From: Calycina herbarum | Taxonomy: Eukaryota > Ascomycota > Leotiomycetes > Helotiales > Pezizellaceae | NCBI GenBank assembly: GCA_001414485.1 | Contig: LLEY01000023.1 | Location: forward strand, 62,001-126,000 | DNA: 64,000 nt | Reading direction: 5' to 3' | Shown: piece by piece, positions 3,530 through 45,044 of the stretch | Layout: every line of letters starts with the position of its first letter | How positions within the stretch are numbered: position 1 is the stretch's first letter | Translations under genes and position numbers: made by a program | Notes under the pieces: model-generated | What the model was told of the DNA's origin: nothing | Seen by the model: the letters and a program-made list of their open reading frames with translations, nothing else | The model's database searches: none

Positions 3530-5364
3530 ATATGTTTTATAAGCGAGTCGCTTATATAAGCGGGTCGTCTACTTTCCTTATCGCGTACTATATACTACCT
3601 TTAAATTATAATAGCTTAATACTACAACGTTTAATTACCTTCTTAAGAAGCTAATATTATTTTAGTACTCTAAGAACTTGAAAACAACGTGTTATTAACC
3701 GAATAAAGCGCTATAAAGATTTACTATGTTCCTTAAAAGACTCTCTCTAATTAACGCGCTAGAAAGCTCTTATAACGCGATTACTAGCCTAATTCGAAAA
3801 ATCTTATAAAGCTAGAGAAGGAGGTAATAGTTAGATATATATTAGAGTTAGATTCGCGAGGGTTTTCGCTTATAAGAGATATAGTACGAGATATAGCTAA
3901 TAATCTACTAAGAGAGCGCGATAGAAAGCCTATAGATAGAAACTAGCTAGATAACTTTATAAAACGTATACCTAAGCTTAAAACTTAATAGAGTCGTTTA
4001 TACGATTATTAGCGAGCTTTAACTAAGGATCCGCGAGTTATTAGCTTATAGTTTACGCTTATATAGTCTATTAAAGAGAAATATAGTATTTAAGATAAGG
4101 ATATTTATAACTTTAACGAAAGTAGCTTTATAATAGAAGTTATTTCGTTCTAACTTATTATTATAAGCTTAGAAACGCGTAGAAAGCGAAAGCAAGTTTA
4201 GCTAGGTAATCGCGAGTAGGTTATAGTTATTTAAGAAGTTAACGTAATAGAATAAGTAATCCTACTATTTATTATATTCGCGGGCAAAGTACTTATTTCT
4301 ACCTAGTACTAAGATATATATATACTATACGATTAGGTAATTAAGATTAGCAATAACGGCTAGATAAATAATAAGCTTAGAGTTATATAGTTAAAGTATT
4401 TTAATAAGTATATAAAGGTATAAAGTATAGAAGAATATCGTTTATTAATTATTAATAGTTATAAAAGCTATAACTTACTTAAATTCTAGTAACTCTATAA
4501 AGACTTAAATATTATTACTCTTTATATACCTCTACACTTATCGTACCTACTATAGCCGCTTAATATAGTCTGCTTCTTACTATTAAAGCGAGCGTATAGA
4601 GCTGAGATATTAGGCTTAGTACGGAATTATATTAATTATATTACTAAAGAAACCTTTCTTCTTATATTTAAAGCAGCTTTTTATAAAGTATTTATAAAGG
4701 ATAATATCTACGCGAGTTTTAAAGAGGCTAGGCTAGTCCTATATAGCCTAGAAGCTGTGTTATTAAAGCTTGATTTAAGGCTTCGTACGCTAATACTAAT
4801 AATACTAGAAGACACTCTATAGACACTTAAAATACTAAGTAACGTATATAAAATAATAGCTTAATTAACACTTATTCGAGATCGGATTCAAAGACATCAA
4901 GACTCGTTACCTATTTCTATTATTCAGTCTCTTAATTAACTTAAAAAAGGCTTAACTAGGGTGATATATAATATAGTATTAATATGTAAGGAAATTACTA
5001 GTCTTCGTATAATAACTAAGGCTATAACTAAGTGTAAAAGTCGTAAGAGGAAGTATATTAAGAGTTAAGAGATATTAATAGTAGGCGACGTAGCTGATTT
5101 AATTATATCTAAGAAAAATAGTAGCTAGAAATAAGGTAAAGAGTCTAGGAAGAGAGTTTACATAGACAGGTACTATAGCCGTTGTAGTAAAACTAGGTAT
5201 AATTCTTATACTTATTAGGTAGAAATATTAGATATAAAAGATAGCGAAAGTTCTAAAGAATACTAGATAGCTTCTATAGTAATAATAACTTTGTATAGTA
5301 TTAAGTATTTTATATTATAATAACACTAGGTTGAAAAAGTAGGCGACTCGCTTATAAAACACGT
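3530..5364 (+). mobile_element. Fot1/pogo-like TIR transposon B, copy 1 (heavily RIP-mutated)
   Basis: An 1,835-bp element flanked by TA (3528-3529 and 5365-5366). It has exactly the same length as copy 2 at 33,472-35,306 and is collinear with it. The left TIR has decayed (ATATGTTTTATAAG against ACGTGTTTCACAAG in copy 2). The plus strand carries a pogo-family transposase relic, including a PLHLSYLL-PLNIVCF-LLKRAY-type stretch around 4,540-4,600, interrupted by many TAG/TAA codons. It sits in Gypsy I RT, and the intact paralogous site is near 15,230. Confidence 0.88.
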
Positions 5365-6440: not shown

Positions 6441-9400
6441 TATTTATACGAAAAGGAGCAGAGATTCTCTTAAGTTAACAAACACCGATTATACTCTCGC
6501 TTAAATACCGAGACCTTGTTTATATCGAGATCACGCTATTCTAAGGCCTCCTGTTATATATCCTTAATATATATAACGCCCCCCTAGGCGCTAAGGGCGC
6601 TAGAGAGGCTATTAACCTCGTCCTTCACTTATAATACATTACTATAACGAATACCCTTATAGCCGGCAACTTAAACCTAAAGAGCCAGCTCTAGTAACCG
6701 GATTTCCATAGGCAGGAAAGTATACAAGCTCTCTCGCTTACTAACTAGACAGAGGACGGAGGGCTATAACTCTCTACCCCTCCTAGGACGTAAACGTACA
6801 ACCTTAGCAACACCCTCGACCTTGCCTTTTGCTTAAGCAACCTCTACTAAAGAGAGGCGTCTACCGAGATAGACCTTACCTTTAAGTATAGCTCTAACCA
6901 CCTCCTACTTCTTACCCGGCTTCCGTATATAGGAAACCTAATAGAGAAGGATCCGCCTTTGAAACTTAGTACTCTTAACGATAAAACCTTCGAGACTACC
7001 CTCTAAAGTAAGCTCGAAACGTAATAGCTATACGAACTTACGTAATAACTAAACACGGAATCGCTAGAGGCTCTAGCAGGATTTATCACCGAGAGCGTAT
7101 ATAGCGCGTACCTCTATAGTACTAAGCGAGGTCTCGGACATAGATTCGGACACCTCTAGTAGAACAAGGAATGCTAGACGACAGCTACCGAGGCAAGGCA
7201 GGCACAAAGGCTTAACATAAGCCCTCGAGCCTTAAAGTCTCTTCGTAGAAGTCTAAGACAGGAAATCCAGTAGGTAAAGAGAGAATACTTCTGTAACCTA
7301 ATCGATAAAGCTACGAAGAGCAAAGACGTCTTTAAGATTTATAAGTAGCACTAGAGCACTAGAATATATAAGTATCCTCTCTTAAGAGACTCGGCAGGTT
7401 AGCTAGGCTTTACTACTTAGGAGAAGAAGAAGATCCTCGTATAGGAGCTGCTTATAAACAAGGCCGAAGTTAGGGATATACTATTTAATACTCTAACTAC
7501 TTCTACTTAGGCTCTCCCGTAGGCAGACCTTACTTTATATAAGGTTAAGGAATTAATCCTTAGTAAAGCTTCAACTGTACTAGGAGAAGACGAGCTAGTA
7601 ACAGGGGTCCTTAAAGTAGCCTAGCTACAGATCTCGAACCTTGTCTTCCTACTATTCAGAGGCTATATAGAGACAGGCTTCTACTTAAAGATCTTCCGAT
7701 CTACTATCGTCGCTATTATCCTAAAACCTAATAAGAAAGACAAGTCCTCCCCTCGAGTATACCAGCTAATTACTCTACTCTCGGTCCTTAGAAAAGGGCT
7801 TAAAAGGCTCCTCGCTAAGCGAGTCTCTTAGATAGCTATTAAGTACTCTATTCTAGAGCAGAACCAGTTTAGAGCTCTTCTGCTAAGAGCTGCCATAGAC
7901 CTTACTACCTGTCTTATCTTCGATAATAAGTTAGCTCTTATAGATAAGTAGGAAGCCTCTCTTCTTATACTCGATATTAAGAGCGCCTTTAACGTAGTAC
8001 TCTCTAGCCGCCTAATTAAAAGGTTAAGAGAGTAAGGATAGCTGTATTACTTCGTAGAATAGGTCTCCTCTTTCTTAACTAATAGATTAGTAAAAGTAAA
8101 GCTTAATAGAGAAGTAGGCGACGCTACCCCGCTTTAGTATAGCCTTCTACAAGGCTCGTCTATCTCACCGATCCTCTTTATGCTTTATATCTAGCCTCTC
8201 TTCAGATTAGGAGTTAGTTCTCACCTAGTAGTATAGAGATTCGGCTACGCCGACGATATTAGATTACTTGCTTTCAAGCCTTTAAAAGCAGGGAATATTA
8301 AGAACCTAGTAAAGCAGGTAGCAAGCGTACTTAAGTAGGGCATAGACGAGGGTATTATCTTTAACGCTGAAAAATCAGAACTTATCTACTTCTCTTATAA
8401 AAGGAAACAAAGAGGAAGAGGTATCTAGCCTCCCCCTGCTATTATAGTTAAAGGAAAGACAATAGAGCCTATATAGGAACTCTAGTAGCTTAGTATCTTC
8501 TTCGACCCCTGCCTCACCTTTTATAGTTATATTAAAAGAATAGCTAGTAAGGCTATACTTGTAGCTAATACTCTCAAAGGAATAATAAATATAGTAAGAG
8601 GATCCCTCTTATATCTGCTGAAATAAGCAGTCACTGCTTATATCCTCTCGATCGCCTATTTTAAACACGAGACCTAGTACTCTAGTCGTACGAAAACAGG
8701 CTAAGTAGGTACTATAAACAACCGGATCGGCCGCTACCTAACTCTCCTAGATAGAGTAGTTACAAAGTATACTAGAATCATCCTCCTAGTCTATAAAACC
8801 ACTCCTACCTCGGTACTCCTTATAGAATCTAGCCTCCTAGCTACTAAAATTACTCTTATAGTAAAAAGCGAAGCTTTTAAGACTAGAACTCGACGACTCA
8901 ACTCGGTACACCTGCTTAAGCGATGTGTAAATAACCCTTACTTAAAGGCTAGGCTTATTTACCGCTCTTCTAAACCTCTCCCCTCTTTAGAAGAAGTCGA
9001 TCTAATTCAAGACCTCTTATAGAGTAGAGGGTTTAACCGCTAAGCCCGCCTTCTCGAGGTAGCCGGCCCGAGCTCTAATAGTAATAAAGACTCCTACAAA
9101 GCCGAATTCCTTGAATTCCTCGCCTCTGTTCCGCCTATAGACCTAGTTGTATTTACCGACGGCTCTCGCTTAGACGATAAAAACATAGGAGAAGGCGTAT
9201 GCCTTATAAGAGAAGGGGTTATTTTAAATATAAAGCTCTTCTCTTTTAGTAAAACCTTAGAAATATATAATACAGAAGCGAGAGCCGCCTTACACGGTCT
9301 TAAGCTTGCTCTTATATCCCCTTTTTAGTCCTCGACTATAAAGTACTAGATTTACCTCGATAACCTCGAGGCTATACTATAGCTAACCTACCGATCCTGT

Positions 9401-37218: not shown

Positions 37219-37392
37219 TTATTCGAGAAAAAAAAATCTGCAAACAGAAGAACCGAATTGAGCAACAAATTCAAGAGAAAATAATGAGATCTGTTCTTCC
37301 AGCGTAATTTTTTCGAGAAGGGCATCAATGTCAACCTCAACTTGAGGAACTGACCCTTCTGCCAGGGCTTCTGCTAATGCTGTTGCTACCAT
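37219..37392 (-). pseudogene. Truncated GH3 beta-glucosidase N-terminus (57 codons)
   Basis: The ATG at 37,392 opens a 57-codon frame ending at a TAA (37,219-37,221). Residues about 20-37 (EVDIDALLEKITLEEQISL) have the look of the conserved start of intracellular-type fungal GH3 beta-glucosidases, where the next residues should lead into the FWHT and SDGPNG motifs. Here the frame instead runs into unrelated sequence and a stop. Upstream, a GTAAGT (37,541) and a TTTTAG (37,433) could delimit a 5'-UTR intron, so the relic may keep part of its promoter and leader. No further GH3 sequence is recognised nearby. Judgement from memory of the family; an alignment was not possible. Confidence 0.55.
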
Positions 37393-37542
37393 AGTAGTAG
37401 TAGAATAGGGGCGAGTAGAGAGCCACTTGTGCCTAAAATGGAGAAATGGATTGAAGAGTTGAAGAGAAGAAGAGAAGAGAAGCTCACAGGAAAAGCATAA
37501 GAATAGGAAGATTTCCAGCTTCAGCTTGTGTGTTGACTTACC

Positions 37543-38058
37543 GTTGAACCTTGAGCGGCAGTGTTGGTCTTGATACTACTGAGCGGGGATCGTGAATTCT
37601 TGAAGCTGCAGGTATTCCGACGGCCTGAGGTTTGGAGCCTTCAGCCCGCTCGCATGCGCGTATAACTGAGACTATCCACGTGACGTATACTCAACCACCC
37701 CCCTATATTAGGCGAACAGATAAACAACTACAAATATACTGCCTCCGCAAGCAACTACCCTTTCTTCTCTGCCTGCTCTTATTTTTCTCAACCAAAACAC
37801 TAGCTTAACTAGGGTAGCTGCAATCTAAGTTTATGTCGCAATTTCAAGAACTAGCATAGTATTATTATGATTTAAGAATAGTATGTTTATTCGATTAAAA
37901 ATCAAAACCTGAAAATGAAGAAAAAACCAACAAATGAAAACCTGAAATCCAAACCCAAAATCAGAACAAAAGAAAGTTAACCAAGCAAAACGACCAAGTA
38001 CCTGAAATTCCAAACACAATAAATAAGAAGATAAGAGATTATCCAGAAGCTCCTTGGT
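37543..38058. other. Intergenic, no gene seen
   Basis: Possible promoter of the GH3 relic and the 3' flank of the protease pseudogene. No structure of note apart from an AT-rich stretch at 37,800-38,000. Confidence 0.45.
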
Positions 38059-40649
38059 CTATCCCGACCCATTGCATTTCAAATTTTCCGGGGCGCCAAC
38101 TTTTACAACGGCATTGCGTACGCAACTACGTTGGAAGACACCTGTGCGAAACTTGGCCGTCCACTCCCTCCCATCGCTCCCTAACCCGTATTGAAAATCC
38201 CAGGTGTCAGGCAGGAGGGCGCACTCGGGATTGAGTGCGCTTTTAAGAGCAGTTCCATGATCCGCACTGTCCAAACCGTGTCCCCAGACAGTGTAATCGT
38301 TAAAGGCCAGCTTGTATGTACTGTCACACCCGGCCTTCTTCCCATCCTCGGCTGGCTGGCGGGTGGCTTGCGGCTCGATGCGATAGGTGGTGTCTCCAAC
38401 CTTGATCGAACCACCGGCCTTGTAGTTTTCGGGGTTTTTGGGATCGTTCCCGTCACAGCCGTTGACCAGAATATCCAAGAGGTACTTCTGACAGTCGTCG
38501 GCGTTTGGCTTGAAAATACCAGGCGTCCCATCCATCGCAATAACGACATCCTCATGGTGCCCTCGTTGTATCGGCGCCCAAGAGATCCCGAGTTGTGGTC
38601 CAGCGTGCCTTGCTGCACGGCGGTGGGACAAAAGTCCTTTTGGATGCGATCCTTCAATTCGGCTTGGGCCACGTATTTTCGGGCCGTGAGACCCGAGCAT
38701 GTCGGTCCAGCTTGAGCGGGTGGGGGAGGAGGTGGGGGAGGAGGTGGTGGTGGCGGCGGTGTTTGTGCGATCCCCGGGTTATCTTTCTCCGTGACACCAT
38801 TCCAGACGACCCGGATATCTGGGACCCGAGGCCAGCTTCCTTTATCCGATTGCAAGTAGTCCCGTATGCTCTTGACTAACTTGCCATCGCTGGTATCAAA
38901 GGGGGGTGGCTGGTACGACAGGAGGTTAGCAACCTCGCCGGCAACGATGGGCGTGGCAAACGAAGTTCCCCTAATGGTCAGTGGTGTGTTGCCGGACTTG
39001 GGCATGCAGGTGACACCATCTCCCGGAGCGTGTATAGAGACATGGGGACCACGCTGCGAGAAGTCGGATACGGCCCCGTCAAAGGTTGTTGATCCAACGA
39101 CAACCAACGGATAATCGGGACCTTCAAAGATGGCTGGCACACTATCGACATTTCCTCGCCCCGGTTGCCGTGCGTGATTGCCCGCCGCAACAAACATGGG
39201 AACGTCCATGCCGAGAAGCCTCTTGACAACACGCTGGAGCTGTGTCTGCATCATGCTGTTCGGGCTGTATATAGAACCGGTCATCGACATACTGATCACG
39301 CTCTTCTTCCTTCGTTCGGGCCTTGCCTTGATGTCGTCCACGATCAACTTCAGCGCCCATACTATTTGGGGAAGTGTCAACCTAGCGATTTGGACTACAA
39401 CCAGCTTAGCCTGCTTTGTGGCGCCGTACTTCTTTCCCACTGCTTTGCTAGCGGTACAGGTGGGGTGCGAGTTTGGTCGTGGGTCATCCCAAGGCTTAAG
39501 ACCAAGGTCGTTCGCCGCTGGCGTCTGGAGATGTTGGTCATCCGGAACTACACGAGGAAACTCCTGCATGATCAGTATGGGTTAGCCCAACTTTCTTGCT
39601 GATATAAATAGATATATATATATGTGTGTGTGTATATTTGAACTGAAAAGGGGAAGGCTTACATCTGCTTGGTCTTTGAAAGCCACTCCGCTCTCAAGAT
39701 GGTACACGTAGCTGTCTTGCCCGCTACGCCCCTCGTAAACATAGTCCTTGACTTGTTTCAAAGGAAGCGAGCTAAAAGAATGGTTGATGGTTATTATTAT
39801 GCCACCGAATATATAAAGGACGCTTACCTCGGCTGGCTCAGAATGACCAGCTCGCTAACGGCATAGGATTGTGTAGTAGCTGAGGTCTCTTTTTACTTTG
39901 GCATTGGAGAGTTTGGCTGCAGGGGAGGGAAGCGGAGGCAGGTTGTGTGGAGGCAGATAATGGTCTTCTTCAACCACTTCTTCTTCTTCAACGGCACTCA
40001 CGCCTGGTTCTTTCCTAGTCTGGTCGCGCTGAGAGTCGGTCACTGCGAAGAATAGAATGAGTAAATCGACTGCTTCTCGCTTTTCTCGGGTGGAGGAAAG
40101 TAGGTGCAAAGGGTACTCACTGTTGGCTGACCAGAATATAATTGTACTCTCCATTATGAGTGGAGGCTCTACAGATCCTTCGCCAACGAGGTTCTTTAGG
40201 AATTGTTCCGTCTTGTCGGTTTCACCCTTGTTGCCGCCGTCCCGCGGGAAGACCACAGACCATTTGACTTCATCTCGTTCGGATAGTCATTGAACCGCAG
40301 CCGTATCGCGAGCATTCACATTGGCACTCGTAGGTTGTTCCGGGGGATGGAACTCGACAACACTCTCGACATCAGGGTAGGCTCGTAACTTGGAAGCTTC
40401 ATCAGGAGAGGCTTCCACGGTCCATGAAATCAGTTGATCTTTGAGGTTCGTCCAGGGTAAGAGGTCGTCGGTGCCAACAATGTCCTTGACAAAGTCGCTA
40501 GTCTTGGAAGTTTCGGTGCCGTTTTTTGGAAAGATTGTATAGAATGTATTGCCCGGGGTAGGCTGTCTGTCGAGTCGAGGTAGGTTAGAAGCTAGAGCGC
40601 AGCTGATAAGGCAAAGGACAGACGTAAAGAGAAGTAATGGAGAATGCAT
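38059..40649 (-). pseudogene. Secreted subtilisin-like (S8) protease with C-terminal 8-Cys module, disrupted
   Basis: The ATG at 40,649 starts a clear signal peptide (MHSPLLLFTSVLCLISCALA). A prodomain-like region, a KR site (AKVKRD), the catalytic region, a run of about 14 prolines, and the eight-Cys module shared with the gene at 43,054 follow. Exons: 40,649-40,121, 40,042-39,828, 39,771-39,663 and 39,563-38,059; all introns have good GT..AG ends, and one carries a (TA)/(TG) repeat. Active site: Ser in GTSFATP (about 38,965), oxyanion Asn in AAGN, and His in SHPTC instead of HGT. The Asp motif reads LESG (Glu codon 39,693-39,695). Lesions: an in-frame TGA at 40,287-40,289; a 1-nt shift near 39,870-39,880 before SELVILSQP; and a 1-nt loss near 38,553-38,558 at the module start. 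The reading frame continues recognisably after each. Sequencing error for one lesion is possible, for three less so. Confidence 0.85.
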
Positions 40650-41336
40650 GATGAGAAGCCGAAATTGACAGGTGTGGAATGAAATTGATGAGAGCGTTGA
40701 TATTTCCTGGACTGGTGGAACAAGACGGGACTATATAGAGCTGCCATTGTCCTACGATGGAAGGATTGCATCTATTTCCATATCCAACAAGTCTTCCACG
40801 ATATCTGAACGGGAACAACATCGGATTATTGGAAGTGGATTGAGTGCATACCTTGATCCGAATCCTTCGACCTTCTCCAAGGATTCATCCATGATGTGAT
40901 ATTGAGCCAGCGGTAATTAGCAGGATCGACAAGAACGAGGCGAGGTTAACGCGATAAGTTGTATGTGTTATGTTGGATGTTTTGTGTAGAGGGCAAAGGC
41001 AGTGCAGCCGACCGAGGACGGGGGGTTCGACACTGGGTGGCGGCTAAAACCTTGGCGTTCGTATAGGACCAACAGCCCTATAATTTAAGTGGAGCAAAAA
41101 CATTCTGCTACCTATACAAAACCTCCTCCCTGTTCGATATCCAACACCAATTTTAAGAAATAACGCTATGCTAAGTCTCCGAGCGCCACTGCTATGACGT
41201 CTTTTAGAAGCAGTGCAATGAGACCTGATTCATTGACAAGTACAGTTACATTTTCGCTGGAACAAAGTCCAGTTTTTTGTGAGGTGATTAAAAGTACATG
41301 TATGTTCTAGATTGAAACAGCTATTGAGCCTTGAGA
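40650..41336. other. Intergenic between protease relic and ATPase-like gene
   Basis: No gene supported. It should hold the protease promoter (minus strand) and the 3' UTR of the gene at 41,337. A TATA-like TATATAG lies at 40,732, but on the strand that does not serve the protease. Confidence 0.45.
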
Positions 41337-42500
41337 TCAATCTAGAACTATTTCTCCTGTGGACCATGGTGCCGGGCCTCGACGCATAAACTCGGCAGCC
41401 CCTTTTGCGGAAACCACCTGCACTGTGGCATCGACAGGTAAAATGGGTGGGACACTGCCAAGATATTCCTTCAAAGTCGACACTAAAAACTCCATGAAAT
41501 CCCCGTAGACCTTGTCACCTGTAACCAGAATCTTTGTTGGCCTAGGGAAGAGGGGAAACTCTGTCATAACGGCTAACAGTACGTCTTTTACGTTAGCCCA
41601 ATAATCACACGCTCTTGCTCCGTATCCAGGAATGGCATTGCTGCCGAGAGTGAAGTTCTCAACCCGTCGATAGTGTGGCTCCCACGCGGCCTCAGCGACA
41701 GATATTTCGGCTAGCGAGACAGTAAGGGCACTTTGGCTGTAGTGTACTGCGAGCACCGTCTCTTGTGGCAACTGTATCCTCTCCTCCTGGCATTTCTCCT
41801 CGTCCTGCCAATGCTCGCATATACCGAGACCGTGTCCAGCATACGCCGTCGCCGTCTCCCAGAGAATGGGTTTGAACTGTTTCTTCGGAGTTATATATTT
41901 GATACCGGTATAATTAGCGGCGTCTTCGAGGTCGTCTTGGTAGAGCGCAACGAGATGGCTTGAGGTAAAAACAGCCTCGTAAATGCTAATGTCAAAGTCT
42001 GCCTCCAACTGGGACCGTAGGTGTTCGATGACTTGAGCAAGAACACCAACTTCATACGAAGCCGGGAGTCCAGCCACTTTAAGAGCCAACCGGGCAGCTT
42101 TCCGAGGCATGTCGGCCCAGTACTGCCCATCATTCTGGTATGGGGGACTGAGTGATGATATGTTAGCGCTTGATTCAAGCGAGAAGTGAACATGACGGTC
42201 AACATACGCATTGTGCTTCGAAGATTCCAAAGACAACTTTGCCATAACCTGCCGATAAAGATAACCTCCATTATAAACTCGAGTGTGAGTCTCCAATTGC
42301 CCATTTGCGGCCTCGAAAATGACAGCCGCAGCTCCGTAAGAGCTCTGGAGACTGAAGCCAACACTAGAGTTGGCCTTCCATCTCAGTTCTGACTCTGCGA
42401 GAGCGAGGAACGGCTGTTGTTGGTGTTCCCCAGAGGAGGATGTAAAGGAAGCTAACAAAATGGTAGGAAGGTAAGCCAACAGGCCTAAAACAGAATGCAT
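41337..42500 (-). CDS. Secreted Hsp70/actin-like ATPase-fold protein (387 aa)
   Basis: Single exon, ATG at 42,500. Residues 1-18 or so (MHSVLGLLAYLPTILLASFT) form a signal peptide or N-terminal anchor. The body resembles a large Pezizomycotina family of Hsp70-like proteins. It has a middle motif AYAGHGLGICEHWQDEEKC, a VLAVHYSQSALTVSLAEI strand pair, the segment PRPTKILVTGDKVYGDFMEF (the phosphate/adenosine-loop region) and the end VVSAKGAAEFMRRGPAP. The N-terminal ATPase phosphate-1 loop is not evident: SSYGAAAVIFE sits where it should be. Nucleotide binding may therefore be lost. N-glycosylation sequons occur (NSS, NIS, NYT, NFT). Most relatives I know are cytosolic; the signal peptide is the odd feature. 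It is divergent from the SGNH hydrolase with 553 bp between the starts. Confidence 0.68.
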   Translation of the reverse strand: MHSVLGLLAYLPTILLASFTSSSGEHQQQPFLALAESELRWKANSSVGFSLQSSYGAAAVIFEAANGQLETHTRVYNGGYLYRQVMAKLSLESSKHNAYVDRHVHFSLESSANISSLSPPYQNDGQYWADMPRKAARLALKVAGLPASYEVGVLAQVIEHLRSQLEADFDISIYEAVFTSSHLVALYQDDLEDAANYTGIKYITPKKQFKPILWETATAYAGHGLGICEHWQDEEKCQEERIQLPQETVLAVHYSQSALTVSLAEISVAEAAWEPHYRRVENFTLGSNAIPGYGARACDYWANVKDVLLAVMTEFPLFPRPTKILVTGDKVYGDFMEFLVSTLKEYLGSVPPILPVDATVQVVSAKGAAEFMRRGPAPWSTGEIVLD

Positions 42501-43053
42501 GTTTCTTGGCGTGAAAAGAATTTTTAGAATTTTGGAAGAGATTGTTGCGTAAGATTGTTACGAGTGAGTTTTTAGTGAGTTGGTGTTGGTTCAGAGGGCG
42601 TTTGGGGACTCTTTATTCGGCAGGACTTTGGCGGCGCAGTACGGCGTTAACGAAGGATTTTGGTGGGGTATGGCCGGGTGCCGTAGGGCTACGGGTTGCT
42701 GCCAACAACAGGGGTCAATAGACACCAACACTCAGAATGACATACTGATGGAAGTCCTCCAATTTCCTTGAGAAGGTCTGTATAACTAGACCTAGTTCTT
42801 AGCGATCCTACGAGGCTTTCGAGTTCTTTTTATAGCGCATACTTTTGCATAGCAGTGGTTTCTTCGCATACTGTCATATTCAGTGGTTAAGCGAGTTGGA
42901 AAGGGGCACATATAGAGGTATATATACTTTTGTTAGAGAATTAGAATTCATCAAAGCCTAATAATACTGCTCTTGCTACATTGTCCTTTTATCCACTCTT
43001 TTCTTCTACCTGCTGTTTTCTTTTACTTCTCTTTTACCTGCCGTACTTCCACA
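42501..43053. promoter_or_regulatory. Divergent promoter region for the ATPase-like and SGNH genes
   Basis: 553 bp between two divergent starts. On the SGNH side a TATA-like GTATATATAC lies at 42,918-42,927, about 130 bp before the ATG. A long C/T-rich leader (42,975-43,050) follows, which is typical of highly expressed fungal genes. No coding sequence is supported here. Confidence 0.55.
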
Positions 43054-45044
43054 ATGGGATTTTCTTGCATTTGCAACTCATCTGCTATCCTCACGATTCT
43101 ATGCCTTGTGCAGTCTGTTTTATCAATTCCGCATATTTCCTACCAACAAGAAACTGAGAATCTCAAAAGAGCGGACACATTTGAATGGTCGGTCATCGGA
43201 GATTCATGGGCCTCTGGCGTTGCTTATAACGCCAGCAATGTATGGGGTCCCAAGGACAGAGAAGCATGCTACCGCAGTAAAGAGTCCTGGGGGGCCCAAA
43301 TGAGCAATGATAATTCCTGGCGTAGTGCCGAACTTCAAAACTTCAACTTTGCTGCTTGTGGCGGCACCTTGATGAATGATCTCAAGCGTCAGATGACAGA
43401 AAGAGCCGGCCTTCCCACAGTCGTTTGGGGCATGTTCGGAGGCAACGACGCCTTTTTTGGTGCCATAGCTCGAGCTTGCATTTACCAGCCCCCCTCAACA
43501 GATCATCCCTTCGGTTGGGGTAAACCTTGGGATGAGGACCCGGACGGGATGGGCGTGTGCAAGCAGAATCTGAAGCTGGCCGATGACTACTTGAACGACC
43601 CCGCGTCTTTTCGCAAAGCACTTACGGGTGCTCTGAATGATATCTTTGAAATTGCCCAGGATGAAAAGCACAAGAAACCCCACTTCGACCTATATCTCAG
43701 CTCGTATGTGCGTTTCTTCGACGACACCACAGATGCTTGTGACAAGTGGAGTTTTGCCCACGACAAAATCAGTGTCGGTCACCCCAAGCTTGTCAAGGGT
43801 CTTAGAAAGGAAATCAACGATATGGTTCAAAAGGCAAACAACATCCAGGCCGACGTGATCAAGAATTATCAGATACCGGCTCCGAAGCTCGCCAACTACA
43901 ACGTTCGCAACTTTCAGCCTGATAACCTGTTTGCCGGACACCGCTTCTGCGAGCCGAACCGTACGTTAGAGGACCAGTTTTACCACAAGAATCTTTGGTT
44001 GTGGAATCTGCAGTACAATGATGAGCAGAAGGGGGAACAAGCAGGAGTGGTGATGACCGACAATGGTGTTTCATTCATGGGGAGCCCAGCAGGCGTCGAT
44101 GTGACAAAAGGTTTCACAACGGTACTGGGTATTGACAACAACCCTAGGTCCCCAATTCCAGATGGAAGTGATCCTAATACTCAGCAATATGGTTTTGGCT
44201 GGACCGCTCGTCCCTTCCATCCCAAGTTCGATGGTAATACAGCTCTTGCGAACTCTTTCATTCAGAAAATGAGAGATGACAAGATCGATGGCGTTAAAAC
44301 AGTAGATACACCACCAAACCCGACGCCATCATCACCATCGGTGCACCAGAAGCGAAAAGAGTGCTACGGACTGGAAAAGAATAAGTACATCAGCCGCGAC
44401 GGTGCCAAGGATATTATCGAGAATAAGTTTTGTCCAGAAGCTATTAAGGCGGGACCAATCGAGCGCAAATATAATGATGGCACTCCGGAAGAGGTTACCA
44501 TCAGATTGCAAGGTCCAGGAAGCTTCAAGCCAAGCATTGAGGACTGCAAAAACTATCTTCTCGGTATCTTGATTGACGGCTGCGATGTCGCTAACCACCC
44601 TGAAAACTACAAAGGAGGTGGGAAGCAAACAATCGACGATGTTGTGTACGAGATTCAGCCAAGTAGTTTAAGGCAGCCGGCAGAAAAGGGGAAACAAGGT
44701 GGATGCGATTCAACGTACAAGTTGGTTTTCAACGAATATACGATCTGGGGCCACGGGTAAGTCAACGCTATATCCTAATACGTTCGCCACCAATTCTTTC
44801 AAAAACAAATGCTGATTTTAGATATGATAGTTGGGACAGTTCAGATCACGGCTCTGCGTTGTATGGTCAATTGAAAGGCTGTGCTATATTGCCTGATACT
44901 TGGCATTTCGACTATGGGCTTGGGGACGATGGACGTGAATGGACTGCCAAGTTTCGAACCGGGGTCTTTCAGAAGAAATGCGTAGGACATGCTGGAAATG
45001 CGGCGGGTGCTCAGACTGGTTTTGGATGCAATGGCTCTGGTTGA
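43054..45044 (+). CDS. Secreted SGNH/GDSL hydrolase with C-terminal 8-Cys module (638 aa)
   Basis: Exons 43,054-44,756 and 44,831-45,044; the intron begins GTAAGT. The acceptor at 44,830 is chosen over the one at 44,821 because it aligns the module with the protease copy without a gap. The upstream in-frame extension has no ATG. Residues 1-24 are a signal peptide, followed by a short propeptide ending at a Kex2-type KR (38-39). Catalytic blocks: GDSW (Ser51), CGGT (block II), GGND (129-132), and a late HP motif in RPFHPKFDG (His389). The Asp normally three residues before that His is Arg here, as far as I can see. A Pro/Ser linker (about 417-433) with a second KR leads to the module from about Cys437 to the end. 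The module has eight Cys conserved with the subtilisin relic. The likely role is a secreted esterase/lipase; the substrate is unknown. Confidence 0.85.

Follow-up and report, generated by a model that had tools for sequence, protein, structure and literature searches.

Carbohydrate-binding modules of secreted hydrolases are C-terminal, often joined by a linker and found on unrelated catalytic domains. A different group of sugar-binding proteins is the family of the Lyophyllum decastes lectin (LDL), which Pfam describes as alpha-galactosyl-binding fungal lectins (PF18647, Fungal_lectin_2) and whose namesake is described in PMC8350385 as a 10-kDa dimeric lectin. Here we analyse a stretch of 64,000 nucleotides from Calycina herbarum (contig LLEY01000023.1, positions 62,001 to 126,000; C146:62001-126000 in our numbering), hereafter the window. 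It encodes two unrelated secreted enzymes, a subtilisin-like protease of family S8 and an SGNH hydrolase, which end in homologous modules whose first half matches this lectin family. A gene for a protein with a predicted Hsp70-type fold lies between them, and such a gene is again linked to carriers of the module at other loci of this genome and in further fungi.

A C-terminal module shared by two secreted hydrolases

Aligned at 205 and 213 residues, the two modules share 57% identity across about 205 residues, and all eight cysteine columns are invariant. The blocks GCDSTYKL, DTW-F-YGLG, DGREWTAKFRTGVFQ and CNGSG are invariant in both, and a proline-rich linker precedes the module in each gene. 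The eight cysteines in register, the blocks and the linkers had been claimed in the original prediction, made from the sequence alone, and all are confirmed; the homology likewise stands, while the predicted length of roughly 190 residues falls short. The pair scores 235 bits compared with a maximum of 21.9 bits in 60 shuffles, which excludes chance. The shuffles and the Pfam match described below together reject cysteine-rich composition as the sole cause of the similarity, an explanation that the original prediction had named beforehand as fatal to it.

The protease is encoded on the minus strand at 38059..40649 and was read in a three-frame translation, in which PF00082 scores 50.8 bits against a cut-off of 21.8. 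Its layout comprises a signal-like N-terminus (start at 40649), propeptide-like repeats, the catalytic domain (the part with the His and Ser positions spans 38802..39581, minus strand), a proline-rich linker and the C-terminal module (about 38059-38699, minus strand, approximately 213 residues read in two frames). Compared by eye with relative P0011 and with paralogs on contigs C235 and C357 of this genome, the gene has a single in-frame stop and changes frame twice, where an intron would find no room. Unless the assembly or the sequencing is in error the gene therefore appears to be a relic, as had been suggested.

The SGNH hydrolase lies on the plus strand. Exon 1 (43054..44756) carries a signal-like peptide, GDSW at about 43198, GGND, FHPK, the proline-rich linker and the beginning of the module (44362..44756, from Cys437). 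A GT..AG intron (44757..44821) interrupts the second half of the module, the rest of which, to CNGSG, is in exon 2 (44822..45044, stop codon at 45042-45044). Splicing this single intron gives a protein of 641 amino acids from the ATG at 43054. PF13472 stays below its cut-off here (22.9 versus 32.9 bits); the relative P0028 bears a precomputed PF13472 tag, and the catalytic blocks GDSWASG, GGND and FHPK are present in P0003, the window's own protein. The nearest named relatives are from Venustampulla and Halenospora (Leotiomycetes, Helotiales).

The original prediction could not name the module, and held that a match to an established, named domain would tell against it. The first half can now be named. 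PF18647 exceeds its cut-off of 26.5 bits in both window proteins, with 34.4 bits in the protease (38383..38553, minus strand, profile positions 47-102) and 27.9 bits in the hydrolase (about 44449-44649, plus strand), and it is among the precomputed tags of 36 of the 39 proteins in our first search for carriers and 25 of the 26 in the second. The second half has a bare accession: PF28342 (PF28342.1), known here only as a precomputed tag on relatives (35 of 39 and 20 of 26, respectively). The tag is missing from P0003 and P0028, which end before the second half-module, and we therefore infer that it spans this half. Hence the lectin half is already known and the companion half is catalogued. In ten sequences the second half gave no credible match to a Pfam library that did not include PF28342, and the six proteins scanned with NCBIfam gave no useful name for the module. 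When the modules were compared by sequence with solved structures, nothing credible was returned, LDL included.

Because both window modules are interrupted, by an intron or by a frame change, an AlphaFold2 (AF2) model was made on the relative P0140, with modest predicted local distance difference test (pLDDT) values. At this modest pLDDT the first half has the order beta-alpha-beta-beta-alpha-beta-beta and a structural match to 4nds_A, and the second half resembles only ACT/ferredoxin-like folds, a likeness that is possibly generic. Foldseek alone gave no match for this model at E <= 0.001.

Carriers, lineages and copying of the module

Two protein searches gave 64 carriers (39 and 25 further), including P0003, P0018 and P0120, which are this genome's own proteins or 100% matches to them. 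The original prediction had proposed a table of catalytic partners. Classed by what the sequence ahead of the module resembles, the partners are S8 proteases in 31 carriers (17 from named Fusarium), SGNH hydrolases in 11 and a metalloprotease class in 16; the remaining six have no partner, and several of these look like gene fragments. P0140 is module-only and has a signal-like start. Named carriers are found in Leotiomycetes, Sordariomycetes (Hypoxylon, Fusarium), Dothideomycetes (Elsinoe) and Eurotiomycetes (Arthroderma). Many carriers have a proline-rich linker ahead of the module, which most Fusarium S8 proteins lack. Three unrelated catalytic classes together with the module-only protein agree with the proposal of a transferable module on secreted enzymes. 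Among the roles offered for it, binding or targeting suits a lectin-type module on secreted hydrolases, and we found no evidence for an inhibitory one.

The metalloprotease class is supported by HExxH, present in 14 of its 16 members (the other two look like fragments), and by one hit below threshold, PF14521 (Aspzincin_M35) at 25.8 versus 30 bits in a metalloprotease frame of this genome, since a genome search with PF14521 gave four places and C77 was not among them. P0010, which has HEMFH, served as its own reference for the label M35, and its homology to the other HExxH carriers is putative.

In the window relic the His is followed by Pro (SHPT), and Glu stands at the Asp place (YHLESGV, by eye), so that the relic departs from the Asp-His-Ser triad. 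Across the 31 S8 carriers His is readable in 26 and Ser in 19, and both are always kept; the Asp place is readable in 13, and 12 of these have Glu. Judged from sequence, these proteins would have either a working Glu-based triad or be pseudoproteases. FHP is found in all 11 SGNH carriers, GGND or GGNN in eight and GDSW in six; P0142 and P0143 have neither GDSW nor GGND/GGNN.

In the genome searched (68.8 Mb, 379 contigs), loci of the module lie on C146, C6 and C357 (two each) and on C235, C24, C77, C57 and C374, and at C47, C118 and C23 only PF18647 was found. One module clade ends in repeats of the form WPGY(G/S)Dxx(K/R)HVF, mostly behind a dibasic KR, which are carried by a metalloprotease, SGNH hydrolases and module-only proteins: L039 (C77, about 6500-6667), L041 (C374, about 3985-4143), P0139, P0140 and P0141. 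At the DNA level, this genome has four matches to WPGY[GS]D, all of them in the C77 and C374 repeats. In sequence the repeats look like Kex2-processed peptides. A literature search for the motif WPGYGD found nothing, and WPGY and HVFK have no occurrence in the main text of PMC6339444, which surveys repeat proteins processed by Kex2.

A tree was built from 68 modules, omitting P0028, P0030, P0039, P0143 and P0144 (short modules) and with the spliced form in place of P0003. The partner label changes 11 times on this tree compared with 30.8 in shuffles. Some rows are unsafe: own_S8_C6 is partly out of frame, and the C357 pair is full of stops, its row own_SGNH_C357 being a copy of S8 type next to an SGNH-like gene. 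Dropping own_S8_C6, both C357 rows, P0142 and P0136 leaves 9 changes versus 28.0. Forcing the window's two modules together on this reduced tree is rejected by the approximately unbiased (AU) test (p-AU 0.00085). The window SGNH module groups with the SGNH modules of Halenospora, Venustampulla and C6 (support 99/95). For the window S8 module, path length puts other S8 modules closest, though not with strong support, and its top identity (66%) is with the metalloprotease carrier P0010. Since the partner label tracks the tree and the window pair is kept apart, sharing of the module between the two window enzymes is old. A recent local duplication of the two window modules is rejected by the tree and the AU test.

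Local duplication, one of the two origins first proposed, is thus not supported as a recent event for the window pair. Local copying is seen at C357, where the module lies in a 602-bp inverted repeat of 95.7% identity (169897-170498 and 178201-178802; L035 and L036). The repeat contains little besides the module: it sets in four codons ahead of the first cysteine of the S8 module and breaks off some 17 codons short of the module end. Its second copy starts approximately 170 bases past the open frame of a gene that is SGNH-like and retains a remnant of a module of its own. All 26 differences between the copies are transitions, and every one of the seven stops in the S8 copy is TAG, with three at places where Trp is conserved, the pattern expected from repeat-induced point mutation (RIP). 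Modules do, then, move, and in our judgement a protein module copied as one DNA block beside another enzyme gene is a rarely seen step of domain shuffling.

A further exchange concerns the SGNH relative on C343 (L051, 301313-301957), in which the proline-rich linker leads into a different cysteine-bearing tail. This tail is homologous to a piece behind the lectin half-domain on C118 (31% identity over 108 columns; 39.7 bits versus at most 23.5 in 60 shuffles).

Separately, positions 1-24000 of the window form an AT-rich block (26-33% guanine plus cytosine) with RIP-typical dinucleotides (TpA/ApT 1.6-1.9; (CpA+TpG)/(ApC+GpT) 0.10-0.36).

The Hsp70-fold gene and its linkage to module carriers

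The gene between the two enzymes (41340..42500, minus strand, 387 codons) had been described as encoding a secreted protein of ATPase fold, and its signal-like N-terminus and predicted Hsp70/actin-type fold agree with this. A likely in-frame intron at about 42148-42207 covers residues 96-117 or so, which are missing from most relatives. No Pfam family matches the protein. Its AF2 model (pLDDT 82.0) was matched by Foldseek to Hsp70/DnaK nucleotide-binding domains (E 6.7e-10, probability 1.00), with 358 matches at E <= 0.001, and the 50 matches listed are all Hsp70-type chains. Over the whole alignment these show template modelling (TM) scores of 0.42-0.50 and root mean square deviations of 8-13 A, and therefore the subdomains are placed differently or only parts agree. 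The model thus predicts the Hsp70/actin (ASKHA) fold of a nucleotide-binding domain. By eye, the places of the phosphate and adenosine motifs read FSVGFSLQSSYG, VHYSRxALTVSL and TGD; Hsp70 motifs there are richer in Gly and Asp, and the phosphate motifs look degraded. The family numbers 80 proteins listed, the window's own included, of 7996 scored candidates, and its named members are Pezizomycotina.

This genome has five loci of the family (C146, C6, C343, C77 and C324). At C146, C6 and C343 the gene lies less than 10 kb from both an S8 and an SGNH gene, at C77 it adjoins a module-bearing metalloprotease, and at C324 it is near none. Under random placement, the probability that at least three of the five loci fall near one of five S8 loci is about 3e-8, a figure that uses approximate positions and five of the ten S8 loci, the five weakest (E 6.5e-8 and higher) being omitted. 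The five Hsp70-fold loci are not independent, because C6 keeps the gene order and directions of the window and C343 shows that order in mirror image, except that its Hsp70-like gene points the other way.

Linkage in other fungi is stronger evidence than the loci within this genome. In four other assemblies the Hsp70-fold gene lies next to a module carrier or on a contig of matching length: in Venustampulla and Phialocephala the locus tags are consecutive (BP5553_04860, SGNH, with BP5553_04861, Hsp70-like; PAC_15919, S8, with PAC_15918, Hsp70-like), in Hypoxylon FL0543 the contigs with an S8, an SGNH and an Hsp70-like gene are equally long, and an SGNH and an Hsp70-like gene occur together on a 210878-base ENA contig. 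Placement on the same contig was deduced from equal contig size, joined in two cases by the consecutive tags.

Several observations qualify this linkage. The clusters on C146, C6 and C343 may all derive from one ancestral block. In Hypoxylon FL1857 the contig with a metalloprotease carrier and the one with the Hsp70-like gene differ in length, and most assemblies seem to be represented among the carriers or among the Hsp70-fold proteins listed, but not among both.

Clusters of lectin-tailed subtilases or SGNH hydrolases, or of actin-like ATPases, were not found in titles and abstract starts of the open-licence literature, and neither were 'Fungal_lectin_2', PF18647 or the family description. 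The combination of a lectin tail on three protease and esterase classes with a recurrent Hsp70-fold link was found in no paper searched.

Beside the cluster, at 37219-37575 on the minus strand, a short frame with VDIDALLEKITLEEQISL resembles the beginning of a GH3 beta-glucosidase, and the open reading frames listed there include no longer version of it.

Possible joint action and comparison with known systems

The shared tail with its lectin-family match, the three classes of partner and the recurrent cluster suggest three proteins acting on one sugar-coated target. In such a model the module would be a carbohydrate-binding appendage rich in disulfides, made up of an LDL-type lectin domain and a companion alpha/beta domain. 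It would tether a range of secreted hydrolases to one kind of glycan-bearing surface, much as carbohydrate-binding modules do. The S8/Hsp70-fold/SGNH cluster would then bring a protease and an esterase-type hydrolase to one target, where one enzyme would cut protein and the other remove ester groups or lipid, and the Hsp70-fold neighbour could be a dedicated secreted or endoplasmic reticulum partner, for example a folding helper or a scaffold. From the observations above we infer that the module binds sugar, that the enzymes have a target in common and act jointly, and that the Hsp70-like protein has this role. On balance we lean towards this reading, a lectin-type anchor bringing secreted hydrolases to one glycan-bearing surface with the cluster as a working unit and the Hsp70-fold protein as helper, and hold it with moderate confidence.

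A bolder version seems unlikely to us: an undescribed secreted three-part machine of Pezizomycotina, in which a Glu-His-Ser subtilase and an SGNH hydrolase with a shared lectin tail would act on one glycoprotein surface and depend on an extracellular Hsp70-fold protein as ATP-independent scaffold or chaperone, the tail being a mobile cassette that spreads between neighbours.

It is also possible, if improbable, for the module to be a toxic or killer-type effector domain of the KP4/LDL-like alpha/beta sandwich group, with the enzyme serving release or delivery and the cluster an offensive or defensive weapon. PMC13211469 and PMC13324453 place LDL among the structural relatives of killer and nematotoxic domains, and the swapping of C-terminal cassettes (the C343/C118 tail) and the dibasic-flanked repeat peptides of one module clade would suit this. 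However, the readable active-site motifs of the enzymes are kept, except for the S8 Asp and for P0142 and P0143, which are without GDSW and GGN, and resemblance in fold does not show function. KP4 and Y3 are not among the 50 matches listed for the module model, which excludes neither.

With as little likelihood, the module could be a C-terminal segment for folding, secretion or wall retention that recognises no specific target. Its eight conserved cysteines, its C-terminal position and its unrelated carrier enzymes are consistent with this, whereas the module-only P0140 with its signal-like start, the match of a lectin family profile to the first half and the other tail on the C343 SGNH relative argue against it.

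That the module is shared only through local shuffling in a duplication-prone region, with no joint function of the cluster, is very doubtful: the C357 block copy, with its 26 differences all transitions, and the broken window protease speak for it, but the window pair is old with no recent copy (AU test), and the linkage is met again in other genera as well as at two further loci here in this genome.

Whereas proteases and esterases secreted by fungi have mostly been studied singly, the shared lectin tail and the Hsp70-fold linkage lead to a testable prediction, joint action of the three proteins, and offer a way into an Hsp70-like family that is uncharacterised.

Compared with known systems, the window's Hsp70-fold protein resembles the Hsp70/DnaK nucleotide-binding domain in predicted fold, and differs from Hsp70 in its signal-like N-terminus, in having no substrate-binding part and in matching no Pfam family. 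The first half-module is like LDL in its above-cut-off profile match in both window proteins and perhaps, in the P0140 model of modest pLDDT, in its strand order and the match to 4nds_A. Unlike LDL, it is half of a module borne by hydrolases, and the second half adds four cysteines. For that second half the nearest references are PF28342, a frequent tag on relatives, and, in the P0140 model, ACT/ferredoxin-like folds alone. The module as a whole shares with carbohydrate-binding modules a C-terminal place, often behind a linker, on unrelated catalytic domains of secreted hydrolases. In contrast to those modules, it is carried by proteases and SGNH hydrolases and not by glycoside hydrolases, and some of its carriers belong to a recurrent cluster with an Hsp70-fold protein.

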